Assembly: GCF_018139545.1 (NCBI RefSeq)
Contig: NZ_JAGSPJ010000006.1
Span: 124,001 to 188,000, forward strand
DNA: 64,000 nucleotides
Direction: 5' to 3'
DNA from: Affinundibacterium fentianense
GTDB lineage: Bacteria; Pseudomonadota; Gammaproteobacteria; Burkholderiales; Burkholderiaceae_D
Part shown: piece after piece, positions 13,083 through 59,325 of the stretch
Layout of the letters: every line of letters begins with the position of its first letter
Position numbering within the stretch: the first letter of the stretch is position 1
The notes under the pieces: model-generated
Databases searched by the model: none
What the model was told of the DNA's origin: nothing
The model's input: only the letters and a program-made list of their open reading frames with translations
Translations under genes and position numbers: made by a program

Positions 13083-13099
13083 CTAGTTCTTTTGGCGTA
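13083..13099 (+). promoter_or_regulatory. nitrate-cluster motif, narK1 copy
   Basis: CTAGTTCTTTTGGCGTA, ending about 104 bp before the narK1 ATG. Close copies occur upstream of narK2, the dnr-like gene and moaA, and a related palindrome upstream of narG. Read as 7-2-7 it is TAGTTCT-TT-TGGCGTA, like inverted NarL heptamers (TACYYMT-N2-AKRRGTA). That NarL binds it is inference. Confidence 0.6.
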
Positions 13100-13203
13100 G
13101 GGCTAGCCTATTTAGCCTATCTGATCGCCTACTTCTGATGAATTTCCCGATTGCGTGAACTCCCCTAAGCTAAGAGCACTGATCAAAGTTGAGGGAGTAA
13201 ATA

Positions 13204-14463
13204 ATGACCACGCAGGTAAATAGTTCGGGAAAAGCCAATTCGGTGCTGGGTGCCAGTACCTTGGCTTTTACCATTTGTTTCACGATTTGGATGATGTTCG
13301 GGGTGATTGGCATTCCGATCAAAAAAACCTTGGGCTTAAATGAAACGCAGTTTGGTTTGCTGACCGCGATGCCCGTGCTGACAGGTTCCTTGATACGCGT
13401 GCCACTGGGTATTTGGACCGATAGATTTGGTGGTCGCATCGTGTTGTTTTTGTTGATGATCTCTACCGTGATTCCGATTTTTTTGATCAGCTATGCGACC
13501 GCTTATTGGCATTTTTTGGTCTTAGGTTTGTTCGTCGGTTTAGCCGGTGGCTCTTTCTCGGTAGGTACGCCTTATGTGGCGCGATGGTTTAAAAAAGATC
13601 GTCAAGGTCTGGCAATGGGTATTTTTGGCGCCGGTAACTCTGGCGCGGCGGTGAATAAGTTTATCGCGCCTGCCATTATTGCTTCGGCAGGCTGGGTCAT
13701 GGTACCCAAAGTCTATGCTGTCTTGATGTTAGCCGCTGCATTGATTTTCTGGGTTTTCTCGTCGACTGACCCTAGCCATAATGTGAAGTCCAGCGTCAGT
13801 TTCACCGCACAATTAAAAATGCTGAAAGACCCAAAAGTTTGGCGCTATTGCCAGTATTACTCTGTCGTCTTTGGTGGGTATGTGGGACTGAGTCTGTGGA
13901 TGGTCAAATACTATGTCACTGAGTATAACTTTGACATGAAAGACGCTGCTTTGTTGGCTGCTTGTTTCTCTTTACCTGGTGGTGTGTTGCGTGCTTTTGG
14001 TGGTTGGCTGTCAGATAAATACGGCGCGTATAAAGTGACCTGGTGGGTAATGTGGGTATGCTGGATCGCATTCTTTATGTTGTCTTATCCACAGACTGAG
14101 TTCACCATTAAAACGGTGACGGGTCCACAAGCATTCCATATCGCATTGACGCCTCTGGTCTTTACGAGTTTATTGTTCGTGGTCGGGATCGCGATGGCGG
14201 TGGGTAAAGCTTCTGTTTTTAAATTTATTTCAGACGAATATACACATAATATCGGTGCGGTGTCGGGAGTTGTAGGGCTGGCAGGTGGCTTAGGTGGGTT
14301 TGTATTGCCTATCATGTTTGGTGCCATGGTAGATTTGACAGGCGTGCGGAGTTCTTGCTTTATGCTTTTATATGGCACTGTATGTGTTTCCTTGGTTTGG
14401 ATGCATTTCCAATTCCGTCGGGAGATGATGCAATCGGCGCAGTTGGCATTAGCAACGAACTAG
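13204..14463 (+). CDS. narK: NarK1-type nitrate/nitrite MFS transporter
   Basis: A 419-residue inner-membrane transporter of the major facilitator superfamily, NNP family, with 12 predicted helices. Family signatures seen: GLAGGSFSVGTPYVARWF, FGAGNSGAAVNKF and VVGLAGGLGGFVLP. NarK1-type proteins usually move nitrate with protons, whereas NarK2 types exchange nitrate for nitrite; the assignment here rests on length and these motifs. The start follows TTGAGGGAGTAAATA. It is a lone gene, about 22 kb from narGHJI, but carries the shared upstream motif. A hairpin terminator follows. Confidence 0.9.
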   Translation: MTTQVNSSGKANSVLGASTLAFTICFTIWMMFGVIGIPIKKTLGLNETQFGLLTAMPVLTGSLIRVPLGIWTDRFGGRIVLFLLMISTVIPIFLISYATAYWHFLVLGLFVGLAGGSFSVGTPYVARWFKKDRQGLAMGIFGAGNSGAAVNKFIAPAIIASAGWVMVPKVYAVLMLAAALIFWVFSSTDPSHNVKSSVSFTAQLKMLKDPKVWRYCQYYSVVFGGYVGLSLWMVKYYVTEYNFDMKDAALLAACFSLPGGVLRAFGGWLSDKYGAYKVTWWVMWVCWIAFFMLSYPQTEFTIKTVTGPQAFHIALTPLVFTSLLFVVGIAMAVGKASVFKFISDEYTHNIGAVSGVVGLAGGLGGFVLPIMFGAMVDLTGVRSSCFMLLYGTVCVSLVWMHFQFRREMMQSAQLALATN

Positions 14464-35658: not shown

Positions 35659-35674
35659 TAGTTCCAAAGAACTA
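35659..35674. promoter_or_regulatory. narG upstream palindrome related to the nitrate-cluster motif
   Basis: TAGTTC-CAAA-GAACTA, perfect 6-bp arms, or TAGTTCC-AA-AGAACTA in 7-2-7 form. The minus-strand reading begins TAGTTCTTT, the same left heptamer as at narK1, narK2 and moaA. It lies about 135 bp before the narG ATG. Confidence 0.55.
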
Positions 35675-35807
35675 TTCCACCCTAGTGCCAATGCTGAGCG
35701 CTAGGCACCGCTCCGAAGAATGGGCGTCACGCTATCCAATCTCTAAAATTTGATCATGTCAAAGTGGCGTGAACCTTTGTTTGCGTGCACAAATTAAGGA
35801 GCTTGAG

Positions 35808-38800
35808 ATGAGTCATTTTCTGGATAGATTGAAGTTCATGTCTAAGGTGAAATCCACCTATTCTGACGGACATGGTGCGGTGGTGGATGAGGATAGACAG
35901 TGGGAGAACGCTTACCGCAGTCGCTGGCAGCATGACAAGATTGTGCGTTCTACGCACGGCGTGAACTGTACAGGTTCTTGCTCTTGGAAAGTGTACGTCA
36001 AGAACGGTTTAATCACCTGGGAAACCCAGCAAACAGACTATCCACGCACTCGTCCTGATTTGCCTAACCATGAACCACGCGGTTGCCCTCGTGGTGCTTC
36101 GTATAGCTGGTATGTGTATTCTGCACAGCGCGTGAAATATCCGATGATTCGTGGTCGCTTGATGGAGATGTGGCAAGAAGCGCGTAAGACTATGGGCCCA
36201 ATTCAAGCGTGGGAATCGATTAGTCAAAATCCAGAAAAAGCTAAACGCTATAAATCTGTGCGCGGCCTCGGCGGATTTGTGCGTGCTGATTGGGATACGG
36301 CGCAAGAAATTATCGCAGCGGCGAATGCATTCACCGTGAAGAAATTCGGCCCAGACCGCGTGATTGGCTTCTCACCAATTCCAGCGATGTCGATGGTGTC
36401 GTATGCGGCCGGTGCGCGTTACTTGTCATTGATCGGTGGCGCTTGTTTGTCTTTCTACGATTGGTATTGTGATTTGCCACCAGCGAGCCCACAAATTTGG
36501 GGTGAGCAAACTGACGTGCCAGAATCTGCTGACTGGTATAACTCCACTTACTTGATGGTATGGGGTTCCAATGTGCCACAAACACGTACGCCTGATGCGC
36601 ACTTCTACACAGAAGTGCGCTACAAAGGTACGAAAACAGTTGCTGTGTCGTCTGACTTCGGTGAGATGGTGAAATTTGGTGACATCTGGATGGCGCCAAA
36701 ACAAGGTACCGATGCAGCCTTGGCGATGGCGATGGGTCATGTGATCTTGAAAGAGTTCCACCTCGGTGGTAAGTCGGATTATTTCCGCAGCTATGTAAAA
36801 CAATATACCGACATGCCGATGTTGGTTCGCTTGGTCGAGCGCAATGGATGTTTTGTGCCAGATCAAATGCTACGTGCTTCCCAATTACCAGGTGGCTTGA
36901 ATGAGGCAAATAACGGTGATTGGAAGACACTTGCGATTGATGCGAACACTAACGACATCGTCGCACCGAATGGTTCGATTGGTTATCGCTGGGGTGAAGG
37001 CAAAGTTAACGATGGCGAAAAAGTAGGTCGCTGGAATTTGGAGCCAAAAGATGGTGGCTCAGGTCGCGAGATTGATCCGCAATTGAGTTTAGTGGCTAAG
37101 CATGACCAAGTGGTGAGTGTGGGCTTTAACTACTTCGGCGGTGCAGATGCGAATGACATGGTGTTGCGCAATGTGCCAGCACGTAAAGTGCAATTGGCAG
37201 ATGGCTCTGAGATTTTAGTCGCTACCGTGTATGACCTCTCGATGGCAAACTACGGTGTCGATCAAGGCTTGGGCGGTGCAGTTGCTACCTCCTACGATGA
37301 CGACGTGCCATACACACCAGCATGGCAAGAGAAGCATACTAGCGTTAAACGTGAATTAGTGATTCAGGTAGCGCGTGAGTTCGCACAAAATGCACACGAT
37401 ACTCATGGTAAGAGCATGGTTATCGTCGGTGCGGCATTGAACCACTGGTACCACAACGATATGATTTATCGCGGCATCATCAATATGCTGATGATGTGTG
37501 GTTGCGTTGGTCAATCTGGTGGCGGTTGGGCGCACTATGTGGGCCAAGAAAAACTCCGTCCACAGTTCGGTTGGGCGCCATTAGCGTTTGCGTCCGACTG
37601 GACTCGTCCACCACGTCAAATGAACGGTACTAGCTTCTTCTATGCGCATACTAGTCAATGGCGCCATGAGAAATTGCACATCGATGAAATTCTCGCACCA
37701 ACGGCGGATAAGTCCAAAGTCAGTCATATGAGCATGATCGATATGAATGCTAAATCTGAGCGTCTCGGTTGGTTGCCATCTGCACCGCAGTTGGAAACAA
37801 ATCCATTAGATGTGTGTGATGCAGCGGCCGCAGCGGGCATGGAACCACAAGAATACTTGAAGCAAAGCTTGAAATCTGGCGCGGTTAATATGAGCTGCGA
37901 TGATCCTGATAATCCTAAGAACTTCCCACGCAATATGTTCGTATGGCGTTCGAATATTCTGGGTAGTTCAGGAAAAGGCCATGAGTACTTCTTGAAGTAT
38001 TTGCTTGGTACACAAAACGCCTTGTTTGATGACCCAGATGAAGCGGTGAAACCTTCTGAAGTCAAATTCCGTGAAGAAGCAGCGGAAGGTAAGTTGGACT
38101 TGTTGACGGTGTTGGATTTCCGTATGAGCACGACTTGCTTGTATGGCGACATCGTGTTGCCAACCGCGACTTGGTATGAAAAAGATGATTTGAATACCTC
38201 CGACATGCACCCATTCATTCACCCATTGAGTGAAGCCGTGCAGCCTTTGTGGGAAAGTAAAACCGACTGGGAAATCTACAAAGGTATCGCCAAGAAATTT
38301 ACTGAAATCGGTGGCGACTATCTTGGCACACGCAAAGACATCGTCTTGCAACCATTGATGCACGATACACCGGGTGAATTGGGTCAAGCGTTTGAGCCTA
38401 AAGATTGGAAAAAAGGCGAGTGTGATTTAATTCCTGGTAAGACAGCGCCAAACTTTGTTGTGGTTGAACGTAACTACAAAGAGATCTACAAAAAGTTCAC
38501 CTCAATTGGACCTTTGTTAGACAAACTCGGCAATGGCGGTAAAGGCATTAACTGGAACACTGAACACGAAGTCCATGAAATCGGCGGTATCACCAAAGTG
38601 GTGACAGAAGAGGGCGTATCAAAAGGACGCCCACGTCTGGAAACAGCGATTGATGCCTGCGAAATGATTTTGACCTTTGCACCAGAAACCAATGGTCATG
38701 TCTCCGTCAAAGCATGGGAAGCTTTATCAAAAATCACTGGTCGCGATCATACGCATTTAGCGGTGGGCCGTGAACATGACAAGATCCGTTTCCGCGATGT

Positions 38801-39542
38801 ACAAGCGCAACCACGCAAGATTATTTCTGCACCGACTTGGTCAGGTTTGGAATCGGAAGAAGTCAGCTACAACGCTGGTTACACCAACGTACATGAATTG
38901 ATCCCATGGCGCACGCTTACTGGTCGTCAGCAGTTCTACCAAGATCACCGTTGGATGCTCGATTTTGGTGAAGGTTTGTGTGTGTACAAACCAGCGATTG
39001 ACACCAAGACTGTGGCACCAATGTTGAATAAATCGCCGAACGGTGAAAAAGAGATCGTGTTGAACTGGATTACACCGCATCAAAAATGGGGTATCCACTC
39101 TACTTACTCTGACAACTTGCGGATGTTGACCTTGAGTCGCGGTGGCCCCCACGTCTGGGTTTCTGAGATCGAAGCAAAAGAAGCAGGCTTGGTGGATAAC
39201 GATTGGGTCGAAGTATTTAACAGTAACGGTACATTGACAGCACGTGTGGTGGTCAGCCAGCGTGTGCCAAAAGGTATGTGCTTGATGTATCACGCCCAAG
39301 AAAAAATCGTGAATACACCAGGTGCAGAACTCTCCGGTATGCGTGGTGGTATCCATAACTCGGTGACACGTGCGGTGTTGAAACCAACGCATATGATCGG
39401 TGGTTATGCGCAACAGGCGTACGGCTTTAACTACTACGGCACGGTGGGTAGTAACCGCGATGAATTTGTGGTCCTGCGCAAGATGAAAAAAGTGGATTGG
39501 TTAGAAGGTAAGTTGGAAGAATCTGAAGGAGCAGCGTCATGA
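35808..39542 (+). CDS. narG: respiratory nitrate reductase alpha subunit NarG
   Basis: A 1244-residue molybdenum (bis-MGD) subunit reducing nitrate to nitrite on the cytoplasmic side of the inner membrane. The FS0 4Fe-4S motif with its unusual histidine is HGVNCTGSCSW, plus a later Cys in PRGCPRGASY. Strong family blocks: ADWYNSTYLMVWGSNVPQ, QSGGGWAHYVGQEKLRPQ, PTATWYEKDDLNTSDMHPF and FNYYGTVGSNRDEFV. No twin-arginine leader is seen, fitting NarG. ATG at 35808 follows AAGGAG; a TTG 13 codons earlier is rejected. narH starts inside its last codons. Confidence 0.99.
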   Translation: MSHFLDRLKFMSKVKSTYSDGHGAVVDEDRQWENAYRSRWQHDKIVRSTHGVNCTGSCSWKVYVKNGLITWETQQTDYPRTRPDLPNHEPRGCPRGASYSWYVYSAQRVKYPMIRGRLMEMWQEARKTMGPIQAWESISQNPEKAKRYKSVRGLGGFVRADWDTAQEIIAAANAFTVKKFGPDRVIGFSPIPAMSMVSYAAGARYLSLIGGACLSFYDWYCDLPPASPQIWGEQTDVPESADWYNSTYLMVWGSNVPQTRTPDAHFYTEVRYKGTKTVAVSSDFGEMVKFGDIWMAPKQGTDAALAMAMGHVILKEFHLGGKSDYFRSYVKQYTDMPMLVRLVERNGCFVPDQMLRASQLPGGLNEANNGDWKTLAIDANTNDIVAPNGSIGYRWGEGKVNDGEKVGRWNLEPKDGGSGREIDPQLSLVAKHDQVVSVGFNYFGGADANDMVLRNVPARKVQLADGSEILVATVYDLSMANYGVDQGLGGAVATSYDDDVPYTPAWQEKHTSVKRELVIQVAREFAQNAHDTHGKSMVIVGAALNHWYHNDMIYRGIINMLMMCGCVGQSGGGWAHYVGQEKLRPQFGWAPLAFASDWTRPPRQMNGTSFFYAHTSQWRHEKLHIDEILAPTADKSKVSHMSMIDMNAKSERLGWLPSAPQLETNPLDVCDAAAAAGMEPQEYLKQSLKSGAVNMSCDDPDNPKNFPRNMFVWRSNILGSSGKGHEYFLKYLLGTQNALFDDPDEAVKPSEVKFREEAAEGKLDLLTVLDFRMSTTCLYGDIVLPTATWYEKDDLNTSDMHPFIHPLSEAVQPLWESKTDWEIYKGIAKKFTEIGGDYLGTRKDIVLQPLMHDTPGELGQAFEPKDWKKGECDLIPGKTAPNFVVVERNYKEIYKKFTSIGPLLDKLGNGGKGINWNTEHEVHEIGGITKVVTEEGVSKGRPRLETAIDACEMILTFAPETNGHVSVKAWEALSKITGRDHTHLAVGREHDKIRFRDVQAQPRKIISAPTWSGLESEEVSYNAGYTNVHELIPWRTLTGRQQFYQDHRWMLDFGEGLCVYKPAIDTKTVAPMLNKSPNGEKEIVLNWITPHQKWGIHSTYSDNLRMLTLSRGGPHVWVSEIEAKEAGLVDNDWVEVFNSNGTLTARVVVSQRVPKGMCLMYHAQEKIVNTPGAELSGMRGGIHNSVTRAVLKPTHMIGGYAQQAYGFNYYGTVGSNRDEFVVLRKMKKVDWLEGKLEESEGAAS

Positions 39543-51838: not shown

Positions 51839-52150
51839 GCGAAACGATTCAAGTCAAGCTGAAAAGGCATGTGGGCGAGTGCTAATCGCGTTTCTTAGCA
51901 CAAGAACCCTCAATACGAATGTTTCAGCGTAGCAAGTTTCCTTAGGGAGGGCAACGGAAATCTGCGGAGCGGTATGCATTTGAGAAAAAATCGAAATGGT
52001 TCGTTGTGATGATGCCAATTTTGATATTTTTTCATCGATATTCTGCTCACGTTTCTTGATCCGGGACAAATTTCATCCCCCAAAAGAACTAGAGAAAATT
52101 AGCTTGCCGGCGAATTGTATTGGGGGCGGAAATCATTGACACTGAATAGT
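51839..52150. other. 312-bp divergent region between kinase gene and moaA
   Basis: Contains the nitrate-cluster motif in reverse (52076-52092), about 60 bp before the moaA ATG, and imperfect hairpin-prone sequence around 51930-51975. No molybdenum-cofactor riboswitch fold was recognised by eye, and no coding sequence is supported. Confidence 0.45.
52076..52092 (-). promoter_or_regulatory. nitrate-cluster motif, moaA copy
   Basis: Minus-strand reading CTAGTTCTTTTGGGGGA: the first 13 bases are identical to those at narK1 and narK2. Located about 60 bp before moaA, which would fit an activator site. Confidence 0.55.
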
Positions 52151-53173
52151 ATGGAGAATCAACTATCAATTATGTCGACCAGAGAAACTACGCCTCCCAA
52201 GCTGATTGATCGCTTTGGCCGCACGCTCAGTTATCTGCGCGTATCGGTGACTGATCGATGTGATCTACGTTGCAGTTATTGCATACCCAAAGGTTTTAAA
52301 GGATTCGAGGAACCAGAAAATTGGCTCACTTTTGATGAGATCGATCGGGTTGTTGCGGCTTTTGGACGCATGGGCGTGACGCGTATTCGGTTGACCGGGG
52401 GAGAACCTTTGCTGCGTCGTGATCTTCCAAGTCTTGTGGCTAGATTGGGGCAGCATACGCAGATTCATGATATTTCCTTGTCGACCAACGCGACGCAATT
52501 GCAAAAGCATGCGGTGGCACTGTTTCAGGCGGGAGTGAGAAGGATCAACGTCAGTCTTGACACCTTAGATCGAGCATGTATGCAAAACATTACTGGGCGT
52601 GATAGTTTTCATAGCATCATGTCGGGACTGCAGGCCGGTAAGCAAGCGGGATTCCAACCGATCAAACTGAATATGGTTGTGATGAAAGGCGTGAACGATC
52701 ACGAGGTGCTAAAGATGGCGGAATATTGCTTTGAGCAAGGATTTATTTTGCGCCTGATTGAAGCGATGCCGATGGGAGTGACGGGGCAAAACGCCCAGTT
52801 TCTCGATCTTGCTGGTTTGCGAGAAGAGCTTGTACGAGAGTTCAATTTGCGTCCAGCTGCGGCGGAATTGGGTGGCGGGCCTGCACGTTACTGGACAACT
52901 CAAGATGGGCGCGCGACGCTTGGATTTATTTCTCCTTTAAGTCAGCATTTTTGTGCAAGCTGTAATCGCCTCAGAATGGGCGTGGATGGCACACTGTATA
53001 TGTGTTTGGGGCAGGAGCAAAGTGTCCCCTTAAGGCCGCTATTGCGCGCGGGGATCAGTGATCAAGACTTGGAGCAGGTGATTCGTCAAGCAATAGAACT
53101 GAAACCTGAGCGGCACGAATTTAACACTGATAAGCATAAGATTATCCGTTTTATGTCGCAAACAGGTGGATAA
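52151..53173 (+). CDS. moaA: GTP 3',8-cyclase MoaA
   Basis: A 340-residue radical-SAM enzyme for the first step of molybdopterin synthesis, needed for NarG. Radical-SAM cluster CDLRCSYC, GGEPLLRRD for SAM, C-terminal cluster CASCNRLRMGVDGTLYMC, and the required C-terminal Gly-Gly (SQTGG). Start choice is uncertain between 52151 and 52172. No moaC/D/E are here, so this may be a nitrate-dedicated extra copy; the shared upstream motif supports that. Confidence 0.96.
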   Translation: MENQLSIMSTRETTPPKLIDRFGRTLSYLRVSVTDRCDLRCSYCIPKGFKGFEEPENWLTFDEIDRVVAAFGRMGVTRIRLTGGEPLLRRDLPSLVARLGQHTQIHDISLSTNATQLQKHAVALFQAGVRRINVSLDTLDRACMQNITGRDSFHSIMSGLQAGKQAGFQPIKLNMVVMKGVNDHEVLKMAEYCFEQGFILRLIEAMPMGVTGQNAQFLDLAGLREELVREFNLRPAAAELGGGPARYWTTQDGRATLGFISPLSQHFCASCNRLRMGVDGTLYMCLGQEQSVPLRPLLRAGISDQDLEQVIRQAIELKPERHEFNTDKHKIIRFMSQTGG

Positions 53174-53928: not shown

Positions 53929-55869
53929 ATGCCGACATCGCCTATTTCTACTTCAGCCAGTTTGCCTATGGGCAAACGATTAACCTTTCGAATCTTACTG
54001 ACGACGATTCTCGGTCTGGCATTAACGCTCGCTGCGATTGGCTACACTTTACTTTTGTCTTGGCAATTAGAAGGCGGGGGAGCCGCGATTAACGAAGCGG
54101 GAAGTCTACGAATGCGCTCTTATCGGTTAGCGACAATGTTAGCGCAAACCAGCCCTACGAATATCGTACAGCAAGAGTTGCTTGACTTTAATCGTACTTT
54201 GGCCGATTTACAGACAGGGGATCCAAAACGTCCTCTATTTTTGCCACAGACGACATTGATTCGCGAACAAACTAAAAAAGTACAAAATGCATGGCGAATC
54301 ACTGTGCAAGAACAAGTATTGAAAGTGTTGGCCGAAAAGGATCCCTTATTGCGTCGGCAGGCGCTCACACTTTATGAACAGGATCTACCCGGCTTTGTTC
54401 AAGATATTAATCAGTTAGTGAGTCTGGTCGAAATTGAATTGGCGGAGAAAACAACGTGGCTTCGCCTTTGTCAAACAGCACTGATCTTTATGTCGCTCGC
54501 GGCCAGTGTCGCCCTATTGTACTTGTTGTACCTTTGGATCGTTGGACCAGTAACGCGCATGCAAACAGGCATCGCGCGTATGACCAAGGACGATCTCAGT
54601 GTACGCTTACCAATCGAGACTGAAGATGAGTTTGGAGTTCTCGCTCAAGCATTCAATCAAATGGCGGACCATGTGCAAGGTGTACATAGAACACTCGAAG
54701 TGCGCGTATTGGAAAAGACCGCAAAGTTACAGGCGCAGAATCATGAGATGAGTACCTTATATGAGATCGCGGGCTTTTTGGCTGGTCCGCATCCAATCGA
54801 AGAACTGTGTCGCGGTTTTCTCCATAGAATTATGCACCGCATGGAGGCCGATGGTGGTACCGTGCGAATACTCGATACGTTGACCGACAACATGCACATT
54901 ACTGTGCATGAGGGCATTTCAGAGAAAATGATTGAAGAAGAGCATTGCATCAAGAAGGATGATTGTTTATGCGGTGCGGCCGCGCAGCAGGGAATTATTT
55001 TGGTCCGAGATTTTCGCTTGCTTGATCAACAAAAACGGTATCGTTGCCAAGAAGAAGGTTACGTCTCACTTGCTGTATTTCAAATCGTCACCCGTGATCA
55101 GGTTATCGGCAGCTTTTCATTACATTTTGCGAAAGAACGTATTGTCAGCAGCGAAGAGCGACGCTTGTTAGAAATCTTGGGCAAGAATTTAGGCTCCGCG
55201 ATTGAGAATCAACGATTAATTGCGAAGGAAAAAGAGTTTGCTGTATCACAGGAACGCAATCTCTTAGCGCAAGGTTTGCACGATAGCATTGCACAAGGTT
55301 TAAATTTCCTGAATTTGCAAGTGCAAATGTTAGAAGACTCGTTAAAGCGCAACGATACTGACGAAATTCGTGATATTGCCCCCTTGCTGCGCGCTGGTGT
55401 CCAAGAAAGTTATGAGGATGTGCGCGAATTATTATTGAATTTTCGGACCCGCTTGCAAGACAGTAATCTTGAGTCAGAAATGCGGAATGTGGTCGCCAAG
55501 TTCCAACGGCAATCTGGTGTACAGAGTGACATACATTTTAGTGGGAATGGGGCACCTTTGCCGCCAGAGCAACAATTGCAAATTCTGTTTATTTTGCAAG
55601 AAGCCTTATCAAATGTGCGCAAACATGCACAGGCGAGTACGGTCAAGGTATTGATTGAAAATGGGCGCGATTTTTCGATGACGGTGACCGATAATGGCAT
55701 CGGCTTTGATCTAGATACGATTCACGAAAAAGGTGAAGGTCATGTTGGATTGCGTATCATGCGAGAGCGCGCCGAACGTCTCTCTGCACAATTTACAATC
55801 ACGACCCTTAATACGGTAGGAACAAGTATCCGCCTACAATTGCTGCGTCAAGAGCGTCAAGTGGCATAG
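53929..55869 (+). CDS. narX: nitrate/nitrite sensor kinase NarX
   Basis: A 646-residue sensor. First helix (about 17-40), periplasmic region with the nitrate-binding P-box (AINEAGSLRMRSYRLA), second helix (about 185-205), HAMP, then a GAF-like central domain with a NarX-type Cys group (EEHCIKKDDCLCGAA; RYRCQEEG), HisKA_3 (LLAQGLHDSIAQGLNFL) and HATPase (ALSNVRKHAQAS; DNGIGFD; GHVGLRIMRERAERL). Followed by narL on the same strand. Ribosome-binding site is poor. Confidence 0.95.
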   Translation: MPTSPISTSASLPMGKRLTFRILLTTILGLALTLAAIGYTLLLSWQLEGGGAAINEAGSLRMRSYRLATMLAQTSPTNIVQQELLDFNRTLADLQTGDPKRPLFLPQTTLIREQTKKVQNAWRITVQEQVLKVLAEKDPLLRRQALTLYEQDLPGFVQDINQLVSLVEIELAEKTTWLRLCQTALIFMSLAASVALLYLLYLWIVGPVTRMQTGIARMTKDDLSVRLPIETEDEFGVLAQAFNQMADHVQGVHRTLEVRVLEKTAKLQAQNHEMSTLYEIAGFLAGPHPIEELCRGFLHRIMHRMEADGGTVRILDTLTDNMHITVHEGISEKMIEEEHCIKKDDCLCGAAAQQGIILVRDFRLLDQQKRYRCQEEGYVSLAVFQIVTRDQVIGSFSLHFAKERIVSSEERRLLEILGKNLGSAIENQRLIAKEKEFAVSQERNLLAQGLHDSIAQGLNFLNLQVQMLEDSLKRNDTDEIRDIAPLLRAGVQESYEDVRELLLNFRTRLQDSNLESEMRNVVAKFQRQSGVQSDIHFSGNGAPLPPEQQLQILFILQEALSNVRKHAQASTVKVLIENGRDFSMTVTDNGIGFDLDTIHEKGEGHVGLRIMRERAERLSAQFTITTLNTVGTSIRLQLLRQERQVA

Positions 55870-56017
55870 CGAGCGCCCATTTATTGATGTTCGTGTTCAC
55901 AAGATGGTAGCTTAGTTGGTTTGGATTCCCGATGTAAGCAGTTGCTGTAAGAAGTGACAAACTGTGACTAAACATCCAACATGAATTTTCTTGAAGTCCA
56001 CAACAGAAAGTGAAGTA

Positions 56018-56662
56018 ATGACAATTCGTATTTTGCTGGTTGATGACCATACTTTGTTTCGCAGCGGGATTCGTCTCCTGTTGCAACGAAATCCCGAATT
56101 TGAGATTGTCGGAGAGGCCTCCGATGGATTAGAAGGAGTCAAACGCGCGAAGCAACTGAAACCCGATGTCGTCCTGATGGATCTCAATATGGCGGGCTTA
56201 TCCGGTTTGGAAGCGATGCAATTGATCATCGAAGATTTGCCTGAAACAGCCGTGTTGATGCTAACAGTGTCAGAAGAAGCTGAAGACTTGAGTAGTGCCC
56301 TGCGGAATGGCGCTCGAGGTTATTTATTAAAAAATATCGAAGCAGACTATTTAACCCAAGCAATTCGACGTGCTGCAGCGGGCGAGCCCGTGATTGCGGA
56401 ATCGATGACGGCCAAGCTGGTGATGCAATTCCGTTCTGGAAATAATACGAGTACTGCGCCAGAAAAAGAAAAGCTGACACCGCGTGAACGTGAAACCATG
56501 ATTTGTCTTGCAAGAGGAGAGAGTAACAAGGAAATCGCGCGGAATCTGGATGTGGCGGAAAGCACAGTGAAAATTCATGTACAAAATATCTTAAAAAAAT
56601 TAAATCTCACTAGCCGTGTGCAAATCGCGGTGTATGCGGTTGAACATGGGATGGATAAGTGA
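56018..56662 (+). CDS. narL: nitrate/nitrite response regulator NarL
   Basis: A 214-residue LuxR-type regulator. Receiver with VDDHTLFRSG, phospho-Asp in VVLMDLNMAGLSG and Lys in YLLKNIE. GerE-type HTH in LTPREREMICLARGESNKEIA-like order (key: ESNKEIARNLDVAESTVKIHV). ATG at 56018 is used; a TTG at 55991 is in frame. Partner of NarX. The best candidate to bind the shared 7-2-7 motif upstream of narK1, narK2, dnr-like, moaA and narG. Confidence 0.95.
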   Translation: MTIRILLVDDHTLFRSGIRLLLQRNPEFEIVGEASDGLEGVKRAKQLKPDVVLMDLNMAGLSGLEAMQLIIEDLPETAVLMLTVSEEAEDLSSALRNGARGYLLKNIEADYLTQAIRRAAAGEPVIAESMTAKLVMQFRSGNNTSTAPEKEKLTPRERETMICLARGESNKEIARNLDVAESTVKIHVQNILKKLNLTSRVQIAVYAVEHGMDK

Positions 56663-56734: not shown

Positions 56735-56751
56735 CTAGTCCTTATGGCGTA
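56735..56751 (+). promoter_or_regulatory. nitrate-cluster motif, dnr-like gene copy
   Basis: CTAGTCCTTATGGCGTA: 15 of 17 bases identical to the narK1 copy, including the whole GGCGTA end. It ends 61 bp before the dnr-like ATG at 56813. Confidence 0.6.
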
Positions 56752-56812
56752 TAGAGATGTTTTGATCAGAGCCCTACACTGCAACCTGAACTTCAACAGT
56801 TGGGGAGCCGAT

Positions 56813-57586
56813 ATGAGCAAAATTAATCTCGATGGATTGCTAACGAATCAAGCCTTATTTCGGCATATTTCGCCTTTTGAGTTAGAAGGATTGAAACGTG
56901 AAGTTGCCAAACTTGAATTGGATAAGGGCTTAAGTCTTTTTCAAAAGGGTGACAAAGCAGAAGCCTGTTTTATCCTCGTATACGGATTGATCAAACTTGT
57001 GATTCCTTCTTCCAATGGGAGCGACAAGATTGTTGAATTGATTCGCCCAGGACAATGTTTTGGTGAAGCGATGATGTTTCTCGATGAAAGCTATCCCTTC
57101 TACGCAGAAGCCTTAGAAAATTCTTTGATTCTTCGTTTACCCAAGAATGCGATTTTCAAATTGCTGGACCAATCGCCCTCCATTGCTAGGCAAATGATGA
57201 CGGGATTGTCAGCTCGGTTATTAGGGTTTATTCGGAGTGTTGAACGGCAGTCGTCACATAATGCAATGCAACGCGTGGTAGATTATTTGGTGCAAGTTGC
57301 CATCGCCCAAGATAGAACGGACATTCGACTTGAATTGAAGAAAAATGTCGTTGCATCATTATTGAACCTGACACCAGAGACCTTTTCGCGCATGCTGCAT
57401 CATCTAAGTGAATTGGGGCTGATACGTGTGAGTGCTTCACGTATCCAGATTACTTCCCTACGCGCATTGCAAGATTACCCGAATGGACATGTGGAATCAC
57501 CACAAAAAGAAAAATCAGAGATTGATCTTTCGATGATGAAACAGGCTATTTCTGCCGTTCAACTGCAAGGATCGAATGCTTGCTGA
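56813..57586 (+). CDS. Crp/Fnr-family regulator, Dnr/NnrR-like
   Basis: A 257-residue regulator. cNMP-type sensor domain (GDKAEACFILVYGLIKLVIPS; GQCFGEAMMFLD), long dimer helix, and winged helix with recognition helix LTPETFSRMLHHLSE, whose E-xx-SR residues read TTGAT-type half-sites. It lacks the N-terminal Cys set of Fnr, so it is not a 4Fe-4S O2 sensor. The GEAMMFLD segment is close to Pseudomonas Dnr, a haem NO sensor. ATG at 56813 follows TTGGGGAG; an upstream in-frame ATG at 56744 would lie inside the shared motif. Confidence 0.88.
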   Translation: MSKINLDGLLTNQALFRHISPFELEGLKREVAKLELDKGLSLFQKGDKAEACFILVYGLIKLVIPSSNGSDKIVELIRPGQCFGEAMMFLDESYPFYAEALENSLILRLPKNAIFKLLDQSPSIARQMMTGLSARLLGFIRSVERQSSHNAMQRVVDYLVQVAIAQDRTDIRLELKKNVVASLLNLTPETFSRMLHHLSELGLIRVSASRIQITSLRALQDYPNGHVESPQKEKSEIDLSMMKQAISAVQLQGSNAC

Positions 57587-57704
57587 GACACGCATAGTAT
57601 TCCGCTAGAACCAGTGAAATGCGGTTGCATTGTAGAGAGTGCGTGTTGATGCGTCTCTTTCGTAGTGTTTCGTCGACGTGTTTATCTTCACTAATTTTTT
57701 CTCT

Positions 57705-57725
57705 TGCGCGGCTCCCTGCCGCGCA
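57705..57725 (+). terminator. GC-rich hairpin after dnr-like gene
   Basis: TGCGCGGC-TCCCT-GCCGCGCA, perfect 8-bp stem. Followed by GCAATATTTGTT, only a weak T-run. 118 bp after the dnr-like stop, so it may end that transcript. Confidence 0.4.
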
Positions 57726-57776
57726 GCAATATTTGTTCCTCTCAATTGCTCTCGTTGATTTCAGACTTTGCCTAGA

Positions 57777-57793
57777 CTAGTTCTTTTGGCTAA
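57777..57793 (+). promoter_or_regulatory. nitrate-cluster motif, narK2 copy
   Basis: CTAGTTCTTTTGGCTAA: the first 14 bases are identical to the narK1 copy. It ends 149 bp before the narK2 ATG at 57943. Confidence 0.6.
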
Positions 57794-57818: not shown

Positions 57819-57839
57819 AATTATCCCAACGGGATAATT
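57819..57839. promoter_or_regulatory. perfect palindrome upstream of narK2
   Basis: Arms AATTATCCC and GGGATAATT around AAC, 9-bp perfect. It lies 25 bp after the nitrate-cluster motif and 103 bp before the narK2 start. No T-run, so an operator is more likely than a terminator. The binding protein is unknown; it does not match an Fnr/Dnr box. Confidence 0.5.
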
Positions 57840-57942
57840 GGCAAGTTTGTGTGCACTCCTTAATCTTGGCATGGTAGCGATAGAAACCTGAATACGTCAG
57901 CTTGTGACACCGCTGTCGTGCGTTTAATTTATGGAGAACAAG

Positions 57943-59325
57943 ATGAGTCATGTTTTGAGCAGATGGGAACCCGAAGATGGGCATTTTTGGAGCAAAGAGG
58001 GGAGTAGTATCGCGAACCGAAATTTGTGGATATCGATTCCTTGCCTTATGTTGGCATTTTCGGTTTGGATGCTTTGGAGTGTCGTTGCCGCCAATTTGGA
58101 CAAGGCTGGATTCAAATTTACCAAAGATCAGCTATTTTTCTTGACAGCACTTCCGGCGCTGTCAGGTGCCAGCTTGCGCATTTTTTACTCTTTCTTGGTG
58201 CCAGTTTTTGGTGGGCGCCGATTCACGGCGATTTCGACCGCGAGTTTATTAATTCCAGCGATCGGGATGGGTTTTGCACTACAAGATCCGACGACAAATT
58301 ATTCCACCTTATTGATATTGGCACTCTTGTGCGGCTTGGGTGGGGGCAATTTTAGTTCGAGTATGGCAAATATCAGTTTTTTCTTCCCAAAATCAAAGAA
58401 AGGCTACGCAACGGGAATGAACGCTGGGATTGGTAATTTGGGCGTTTCGGTTGTTCAGTTCGTGGTGCCGATGGTGATCTCATCCGCTGTCTTTGGTGCA
58501 GCAATTTCAGGCGATGGGTTTTTATACCATAACGTCAAAAATAATACCGATGTCATGTTTTGGTTGGCGAATGCGGGATTTATTTGGGTGCCATTTATTT
58601 TGGCAGCAACGGTTGCGGCTTGGTTTGGCATGAATGATATTGCGTCCGCTAAGGCCTCATTTTCTGATCAAGCGATCATCTTTCGACGTAAGCATAACTG
58701 GCTGATGTGTTGGCTCTACATTGGCACTTTTGGTTCATTTATCGGTTTTTCTGCTGCATTTGCTATGCTGATTAAGGCACAATTTCCCGAAGTTGATGTG
58801 GCGAAGTTTGCTTTTTTAGGTCCATTGGCTGGGGCTTTGGCTCGTCCCATTGGTGGCATTTTGTCGGACAAACTAGGTGGCGCACGTCTCACGTTTTGGG
58901 TTTTTGCAGCAATGGCGACGACCATCGCATTGGGTATTTTGCCGGCGCTACATGCACATCAATTTAGTGTTTTCTTGATCTCCTTTATTGGCATGTTTAT
59001 TTTGACAGGACTAGGAAATGGTTCGACTTTTTGTATGATCCCGATTATTTTTCAAACGGAAAGGGAACGTGCTTGTTCAGGCCAGGGCGACGCTGCGCTC
59101 AAACAGGCTCGCTTGGATGCCGCGAAAGAATCTGCCGCTGTATTGGGATTTTCAGGTGCAATCGGTGCCTATGGTGGATTCTTTATTCCACAAGGTTTCG
59201 GTACGTCGATCAAAATCACAGGCGCTCCAGACATGGCGCTGTACACGTTTATTGGTTTTTACGTGAGTTGCATGGTGATTACTTGGTGGTTCTATTCGCG
59301 TAAAAAAGCAGAAATGCCTTGCTAA
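57943..59325 (+). CDS. narK2: NarK2-type nitrate/nitrite antiporter
   Basis: A 460-residue MFS transporter of the NNP family with 12 helices. Longer than the NarK1-type gene, with a family N-terminus (SVWMLWSVVAANLDKAGF) and signatures LCGLGGGNFSSSMANISFFFP, GYATGMNAGIGNLGVSVVQF and GAIGAYGGFFIPQ. NarK2 types exchange nitrate for nitrite. ATG at 57943 sits 6 bp after GGAG; the ATG at 57931 overlaps that site. Stop overlaps the convergent peroxidase gene by 4 bp. Confidence 0.93.
   Translation: MSHVLSRWEPEDGHFWSKEGSSIANRNLWISIPCLMLAFSVWMLWSVVAANLDKAGFKFTKDQLFFLTALPALSGASLRIFYSFLVPVFGGRRFTAISTASLLIPAIGMGFALQDPTTNYSTLLILALLCGLGGGNFSSSMANISFFFPKSKKGYATGMNAGIGNLGVSVVQFVVPMVISSAVFGAAISGDGFLYHNVKNNTDVMFWLANAGFIWVPFILAATVAAWFGMNDIASAKASFSDQAIIFRRKHNWLMCWLYIGTFGSFIGFSAAFAMLIKAQFPEVDVAKFAFLGPLAGALARPIGGILSDKLGGARLTFWVFAAMATTIALGILPALHAHQFSVFLISFIGMFILTGLGNGSTFCMIPIIFQTERERACSGQGDAALKQARLDAAKESAAVLGFSGAIGAYGGFFIPQGFGTSIKITGAPDMALYTFIGFYVSCMVITWWFYSRKKAEMPC

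Follow-up and report, generated by a model that had tools for sequence, protein, structure and literature searches.

A TAGTYC-type variant of the NarL operator proposed for nitrate respiration genes of Burkholderiales and some Neisseriales

Nitrate genes of the window and their shared motif

The window, a 64,000-nucleotide stretch of the Affinundibacterium fentianense genome, holds narGHJI, narX, narL, a gene for a Dnr-like regulator of the CRP/FNR family, two narK-type transporter genes and moaA (Table 1). NarL scores 225 bits against an NCBIfam equivalog cut-off of 250, and we therefore regard it as a relative lying just under the cut-off of that model. It aligns over its full length with E. 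coli NarL (PDB 1a04, E 1e-52) and is closest to Undibacterium entries, with 91-93% identity. The narX product contains the segment GSLRMRSYRL, which we take to resemble the NarX P-box.

The original prediction had placed a 17-bp motif ahead of narK1, moaA, the Dnr-like gene and narK2, and we found all four sequences at the positions and on the strands that it gave. All are intergenic, and their distances from nitrate-related start codons, predicted to be 60-150 bp, measure 58-149 bp: from site end to start codon there are 104 bp for narK1, 149 bp for narK2 (ATG 57943), 61 bp for the Dnr-like gene (ATG 56813), and 58 bp (ATG 52151) or 79 bp (ATG 52172) for moaA. For narG, which had been named without a coordinate, an inverted-repeat search revealed a perfect palindrome, TAGTTCCAAAGAACTA, 133 bp ahead of the NarG ATG at 35808. 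The genome contains no other exact TAGTYC-N4-GRACTA, and this site is the best of the five in the window. The other four are asymmetric, a good half being paired with a poor right half, and depart from the palindrome at 2-3 of 12 positions. Both narX and narL are present, and the sites lie before nitrate respiration genes, as in a NarL regulon.

Table 1. Genes, candidate operators and predicted minus-10-like hexamers of the window
Feature	Position	Strand	Remarks
narK1	13204..14463	+	NarK-type MFS transporter; below NCBIfam cut-off
narG	35808..39542	+	nitrate reductase alpha
moaA	52151..53173	+	molybdenum cofactor synthesis
narX	53929..55869	+	sensor kinase; PilJ-type sensor domain, HAMP, GAF, HisKA_3
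narL	55991..56662	+	response regulator, helix STVKIHVQN; proposed binder
Dnr-like gene	56813..57586	+	CRP/FNR-family regulator
narK2	57943..59325	+	nitrate/nitrite transporter
Operator before narK1, CTAGTTCTTTTGGCGTA	13083..13099	+	exact before narK1 in three congeners (L062, L068, L069)
Operator before narG, TAGTTCCAAAGAACTA	35659..35674	.	perfect palindrome; equivalent position before narG family-wide
Operator before moaA, CTAGTTCTTTTGGGGGA	52076..52092	-	block kept in 13 aligned moaA upstream regions
Operator before Dnr-like gene, CTAGTCCTTATGGCGTA	56735..56751	+	kept in genus
Operator before narK2, CTAGTTCTTTTGGCTAA	57777..57793	+	CTAGTTCTTTTGGCTGA before narK2 in congeners
Minus-10-like TAAGCT, narK1	13166..13171	+	predicted; 74.5 bp from dyad centre
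Minus-10-like TAAAAT, narG	35744..35749	+	predicted; 77.5 bp from dyad centre
Minus-10-like GACACT, moaA	52138..52143	+	predicted; CACAAT/CAAAAT in congeners; 54.5 bp from dyad centre
Minus-10-like TACACT, Dnr-like gene	56775..56780	+	predicted; 31.5 bp from dyad centre
Minus-10-like TTAATC, narK2	57860..57865	+	predicted, weak; 74.5 bp from dyad centre

A pattern merged from the four 17-mers matches the window four times at up to two mismatches, as compared with a mean of 0.19 and a maximum of 1 in 100 dinucleotide shuffles, a test that is partly circular because the same four sites had supplied the pattern. Throughout the genome (4,232,143 bases, 65 contigs), the exact matches are precisely these four sites; the three matches with one mismatch all lie inside ORFs, and the ten with two mismatches are divided between ORFs (seven) and the spaces between them (three). 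The random scatter that would have spoken against a regulatory motif is thus not seen for near-exact copies. At up to three mismatches there is no enrichment in this genome (187 matches; reversed control, 387), and the information is thus confined to near-exact copies of the motif.

We sampled ten other genomes of the genus, six with narL and narG and four without. The six contain 12 exact sites, every one of them directly upstream of narK1, narK2 or moaA; in two of these cases (L065 and L071) the site extends into the 3' end of the preceding ORF match. The exact 17-mer was found in none of the four sampled congeners lacking narL and narG. Genus alignments reveal that the site is kept while the surrounding sequence has diverged, and the expected conservation before orthologous narK1, narK2, moaA, Dnr-like and narG genes was borne out. 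Upstream of the dnr-like genes of Janthinobacterium, the counterpart of CTAGTCCTTATGGCGTA is TAGTTCCTTTGACGTA. Beyond the genus, two more genomes (G009 and G181) contain the exact 17-mer, in neither case near a nar gene. We discarded it as a family-wide probe: it matches 48 of 195 genomes at up to one mismatch, and control counts are as high or higher, which makes it uninformative outside the genus at that threshold. One such 1-mismatch match in genus g16, CTACTTCTTTTGGCGAA, was counted 23 times in G015 and 13 times in G078 by pattern, and is apparently a dispersed repeat.

Consensus and distribution of the dyad

We enumerated all 4096 hexamers, each joined through N4 to its reverse complement, and counted the upstream regions that contain the resulting dyad at up to two mismatches. 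The regions were those upstream of narK1, narK2, narG, moaA, narX and the Dnr-like gene, with malformed ones (2 of 166) dropped and dinucleotide shuffles serving as the expectation. For loci with a KIHVQ-type NarL, TAGTCC ranked first at N4, being present in 30 of 125 regions and in 0.5 of the shuffled ones. With the window and all Undibacterium-like loci removed, TAGTCC again came first (26 of 78 regions, 1.0 in base shuffles); CCGCCG equals it in raw count (26), but 8.0 were expected. When the spacing differs from N4, dyads rich in G+C are present in as many as 32 regions, for an expectation of at least 6 (GCCGGC at N6: 32, with 6.0 expected), which we take to reflect the composition of overlapping coding sequence.

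As a positive control, the identical enumeration was conducted using 33 narK and narG upstream regions from 20 loci with an E. coli-type NarL. TACCAC and TACCCC came first, in 10 of 33 regions each, with 0.2 and 0.5 expected. These correspond to the NarL heptamer TACYYMT as given in the accessible text of PMC4886647, indicating that the enumeration yields the known operator at loci encoding the known type of NarL and a shifted one elsewhere.

The ideal operator that emerges is TAGTYC-N4-GRACTA. It has the 7-2-7 layout of a NarL site, with inverted heptamers 2 bp apart, found de novo as a hexamer dyad at N4 and perfect at 35659, and it has TAGTYCT in place of TACYYMT. The NarL-like 7-2-7 form of the original prediction therefore stands, but its consensus is better written as this palindrome, which the four sites it had listed match well in one half only. 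Likewise, the proposed change of the heptamer is supported, but it involves two positions of TACYYMT and not one: the third base is G, and the fourth is fixed as T.

Among 42 distinct narG upstream regions of the family, the dyad is present with at most 2 of 12 mismatches in 30 and with three mismatches in 6; the remaining 6 precede more distant NarG proteins (65-67% identity) and have a site with four mismatches or none listed. The five listed narG regions of the Janthinobacterium group have a best site with three mismatches. When only non-redundant narG regions are counted (NarG at least 70% identical), 22 of 25 contain the dyad with no more than 2 of 12 mismatches, and 60 rounds of dinucleotide shuffling gave a mean of 0.63 and a maximum of 2. 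Outside the genus, the dyad precedes moaA in 8 of 27 cases and narK2, which there mostly follows narK1, in 0 of 12. The palindrome also lies before narG in Pusillimonas (Alcaligenaceae), before narK1 in Chitinilyticum and before moaA in Jeongeupia (Neisseriales).

These data bear on the possibility that the sites reflect chance similarity or the common descent of whole upstream regions. The circularity of the window-derived pattern and its loosening to background at three mismatches would fit such an explanation. It is opposed by the persistence of the site within diverged surroundings, by the non-redundant regions and their shuffles, and by conservation across orders, and we consider it barely credible.

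Of the 56 family genomes that have a NarL match, 33 contain the exact palindrome; of the 139 that lack one, 16 do (Fisher p 4e-11). Twelve of the 33 belong to genus g6 and have one common site, located before mscL in the two examined; removal of this genus, which is the only correction made for kinship, leaves 21 of 44 narL-bearing genomes with the palindrome (p 1e-6). Some genomes without narL carry it as well. In the A. fentianense genome, the palindrome at up to one mismatch is not enriched (12 matches, and 58 for the reversed control); the 11 further 1-mismatch copies comprise 9 in ORFs and 2 between ORFs.

Palindromes were also observed away from nar genes. They precede mscL in two Janthinobacterium-group genomes, the ones examined out of 12 with this palindrome, PEP-CTERM protein genes in G035 and G016 (of which one has narL and the other does not), and other genes in G001, G155, G166 and G144; loci L317, L318, L311 and L322 represent the PEP-CTERM and mscL cases. 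We set all of these aside as chance occurrences or as serving another function.

Promoter geometry and the NarL recognition helix

Minus-10-like hexamers, which we picked after the alignments had been looked at, lie downstream of the sites at a few recurring distances. Within the genus, the dyad centre is 31.5 bp from the hexamer for the Dnr-like gene (32.5 bp in 2 of the 12 listed), 53.5-54.5 bp for moaA, 73.5-74.5 bp for narK2, 74.5 bp for narK1 (87.5 bp in L142) and 76.5-77.5 bp for narG. Across the family, 31 of 36 narG regions have a hexamer resembling TAGACT, TACACT or TAAAAT at 74.5-77.5 bp from the dyad, and three have it at 86.5 bp. From these distances, NarL would sit near -44, -67 and -87 to -90. 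The spacings of about 31.5 and 54 bp parallel those in derivatives of the E. coli ogt promoter, where NarL is placed 32, 55 or 65 bp ahead of the minus-10 element in the accessible text of PMC9314961. Similarly, the spacing of 74-77 bp parallels the high-affinity NarL site that available portions of PMC4549865 assign to the -89 region of E. coli narG. At moaA, no more than some 8-10 bases separate the minus-10-like hexamer from the ATG in the genus (window 52138-52151), which suggests that the moaA transcript is almost without a leader or that translation starts at a codon further downstream.

Most narG promoters of the family contain a second element, GACTTCTTGC[GC]AAT, at a distance of exactly 22 bases upstream of the minus-10-like hexamer (21-22 bases when other promoters are included). 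It lies near -41 (window 35715-35743), roughly the position that FNR occupies in E. coli narG, and 32 of 34 family matches to the element plus TAGACT, at up to two mismatches, are directly before narG. At this position, the narG, narK1, narK2 and moaA promoters of Undibacterium have only ...GAAT in common. Two repeats were also observed. Directly after the minus-10-like hexamer of narG lies TTTGATCATGTCAAAG (35748-35763), an FNR-like repeat whose arms are one base too close together, which is kept in several congeners. Between the narK2 site and narK2 lies the inverted repeat AATTATCCC-AAC-GGGATAATT (57819-57839), which is not kept in congeners, only CCC..ACG..GAATT being common there.

In E. 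coli NarL, residues 188, 189 and 192 touch bases. The NarL of the window lacks the E. coli-type helix TVKVHVK and has STVKIHVQN, with STVKIHVQNILKKL where the E. coli protein has STVKVHVKHMLKKM. A K-I-H-[VI]-Q helix was found at all 79 parsed NarL loci (of 80), a set in which the I and H were selected, and the Q was not, because the search was seeded partly with AESTVKIH. Five more distant family NarL proteins (41-53% identical) also have the Q. At the E. coli-type loci (L271-L290; segment TVKVH-K), the same position is K in 19 of 20 and R in one. Helix 9 is described, in the accessible part of PMC3246441, as the main determinant of specificity in the response-regulator family of NarL.

The type of helix correlates with the type of operator. 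We counted TAGTYC and TACCMC dyads at up to two mismatches. Before narK1, E. coli-type loci have TACCMC in 10 of 10 cases and TAGTYC in 2 of 10, whereas KIHVQ-type loci have TACCMC in 1 of 14 and TAGTYC in 9 of 14. Before narG, KIHVQ-type loci have TACCMC in 1 of 18 and TAGTYC in 15 of 18; E. coli-type loci have essentially neither (1 of 10 and 0 of 10, respectively). Four distant NarL proteins of KIHVQ or KVHVQ type adjoin narK1: L339 has a perfect palindrome and L335 a site with two mismatches, and L331 and L334 have no site better than three mismatches. The best reading of these comparisons is that operator and recognition helix may have changed together in Burkholderiales and some Neisseriales, although cause is not separable from kinship because helix type and operator type both follow phylogeny.

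Candidate regulators and comparison with known systems

Taken together, we judge it highly probable that the sites are operators of a NarX-NarL nitrate regulon with a shifted operator, NarL being the predicted binder. The regulon operator with a changed heptamer that had originally been proposed is thereby supported, and the recognition helix of NarL is changed as well. Nitrate would be sensed by NarX, leading to the phosphorylation of NarL, a dimer of which would then bind the inverted repeat TAGTYC-N4-GRACTA, that is, two TAGTYCT heptamers two bases apart. From positions near -44, -67 and -87 to -90, NarL would activate narG, narK1, narK2, moaA and the Dnr-like gene. Relative to the E. coli type, the heptamer of this lineage would have changed from TACYYMT to TAGTYCT and the helix from KVHVK to KIHVQ, and the helix change may have caused the operator change.

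The sites could instead be used by another response regulator or a nar-specific regulator, with NarL retaining its classical operator. In its favour, the link of NarL to the sites is a prediction, as is a factor that would read the conserved element near -41. However, the sites have the features of NarL sites (the 7-2-7 layout, the outer TA and the inner YC), and before the nar genes of KIHVQ-type loci hardly any classical TACCMC dyads occur (1 of 14 for narK1, 1 of 18 for narG). Furthermore, narL encodes the only NarL-type regulator in the window, and the palindrome follows the presence of narL. We thus regard this alternative as improbable.

Even less probable, in our view, is binding by the Dnr-like protein, whose gene lies between narL and narK2. 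That gene is within the cluster and itself carries a site, and CRP/FNR proteins also bind inverted repeats. However, FNR and DNR proteins with an E..SR helix pattern read TTGAT-N4-ATCAA, and the Dnr-like helix TPETFSR keeps this pattern, which points to a different repeat. The dyad also precedes narG, narK1 or moaA in Pusillimonas and Chitinibacteraceae, counted regardless of whether a Dnr-like gene is present. A reading of the sites as FNR/DNR boxes was rejected, since they do not match TTGAT-N4-ATCAA; at up to one mismatch, the window has no intergenic copy of that box, and all six matches are in coding sequence.

Returning to NarL as the likely binder, we tentatively propose, with somewhat less than even confidence, a wider view for Burkholderiales and some Neisseriales. 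Their narG-type promoter would keep the E. coli geometry with its operators rewritten: NarL and heptamer would have been altered jointly, the protein by K192 to Q and V189 to I and the DNA by TAC[CT] to TAGT, and in most genera the place of E. coli FNR near -41 would be held by GACTTCTTGC[GC]AAT, read by another putative activator.

NarL is a textbook response regulator. In the openly accessible papers searched, we found no published description of this operator variant, and a search for the literal motif returned only unrelated matches; judged from sequence, the TAGTYC operator would be a variant of the known NarL site that is apparently undescribed there. Scans for NarL sites use the E. coli consensus and would therefore miss nearly all of the sites reported here. 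If our interpretation is correct, it defines the operator through which a large group of environmental bacteria controls its nitrate genes, and the two naturally occurring NarL types allow a test of which helix residues set specificity in the family. It would also place the Dnr-like regulator under NarL, tying nitrate sensing to a second regulator.

The DNR/FNR boxes of beta-proteobacterial denitrification genes, as covered by the accessible text of PMC1274295, resemble the present sites in serving nitrogen-oxide respiration genes in the same bacterial class; both the repeat (TTGAT-N4-ATCAA) and the protein family differ. The NarX-NarL regulon of E. coli is alike in its narX-narL pair, its target genes and its inverted heptamers two bases apart, with the outer TA and inner YC bases in common with the operator given in available portions of PMC4886647 and PMC4549865, and with sites near -89 at narG and near -44 and -67 as at the ogt derivatives. 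In contrast to the E. coli regulon, the window has no intergenic TTGAT-N4-ATCAA box at up to one mismatch, and the proposed targets include a Dnr-like regulator gene and moaA. Positions 3-4 of the heptamer are GT here and CY in E. coli, and the recognition helix is KIHVQ here and KVHVK there.
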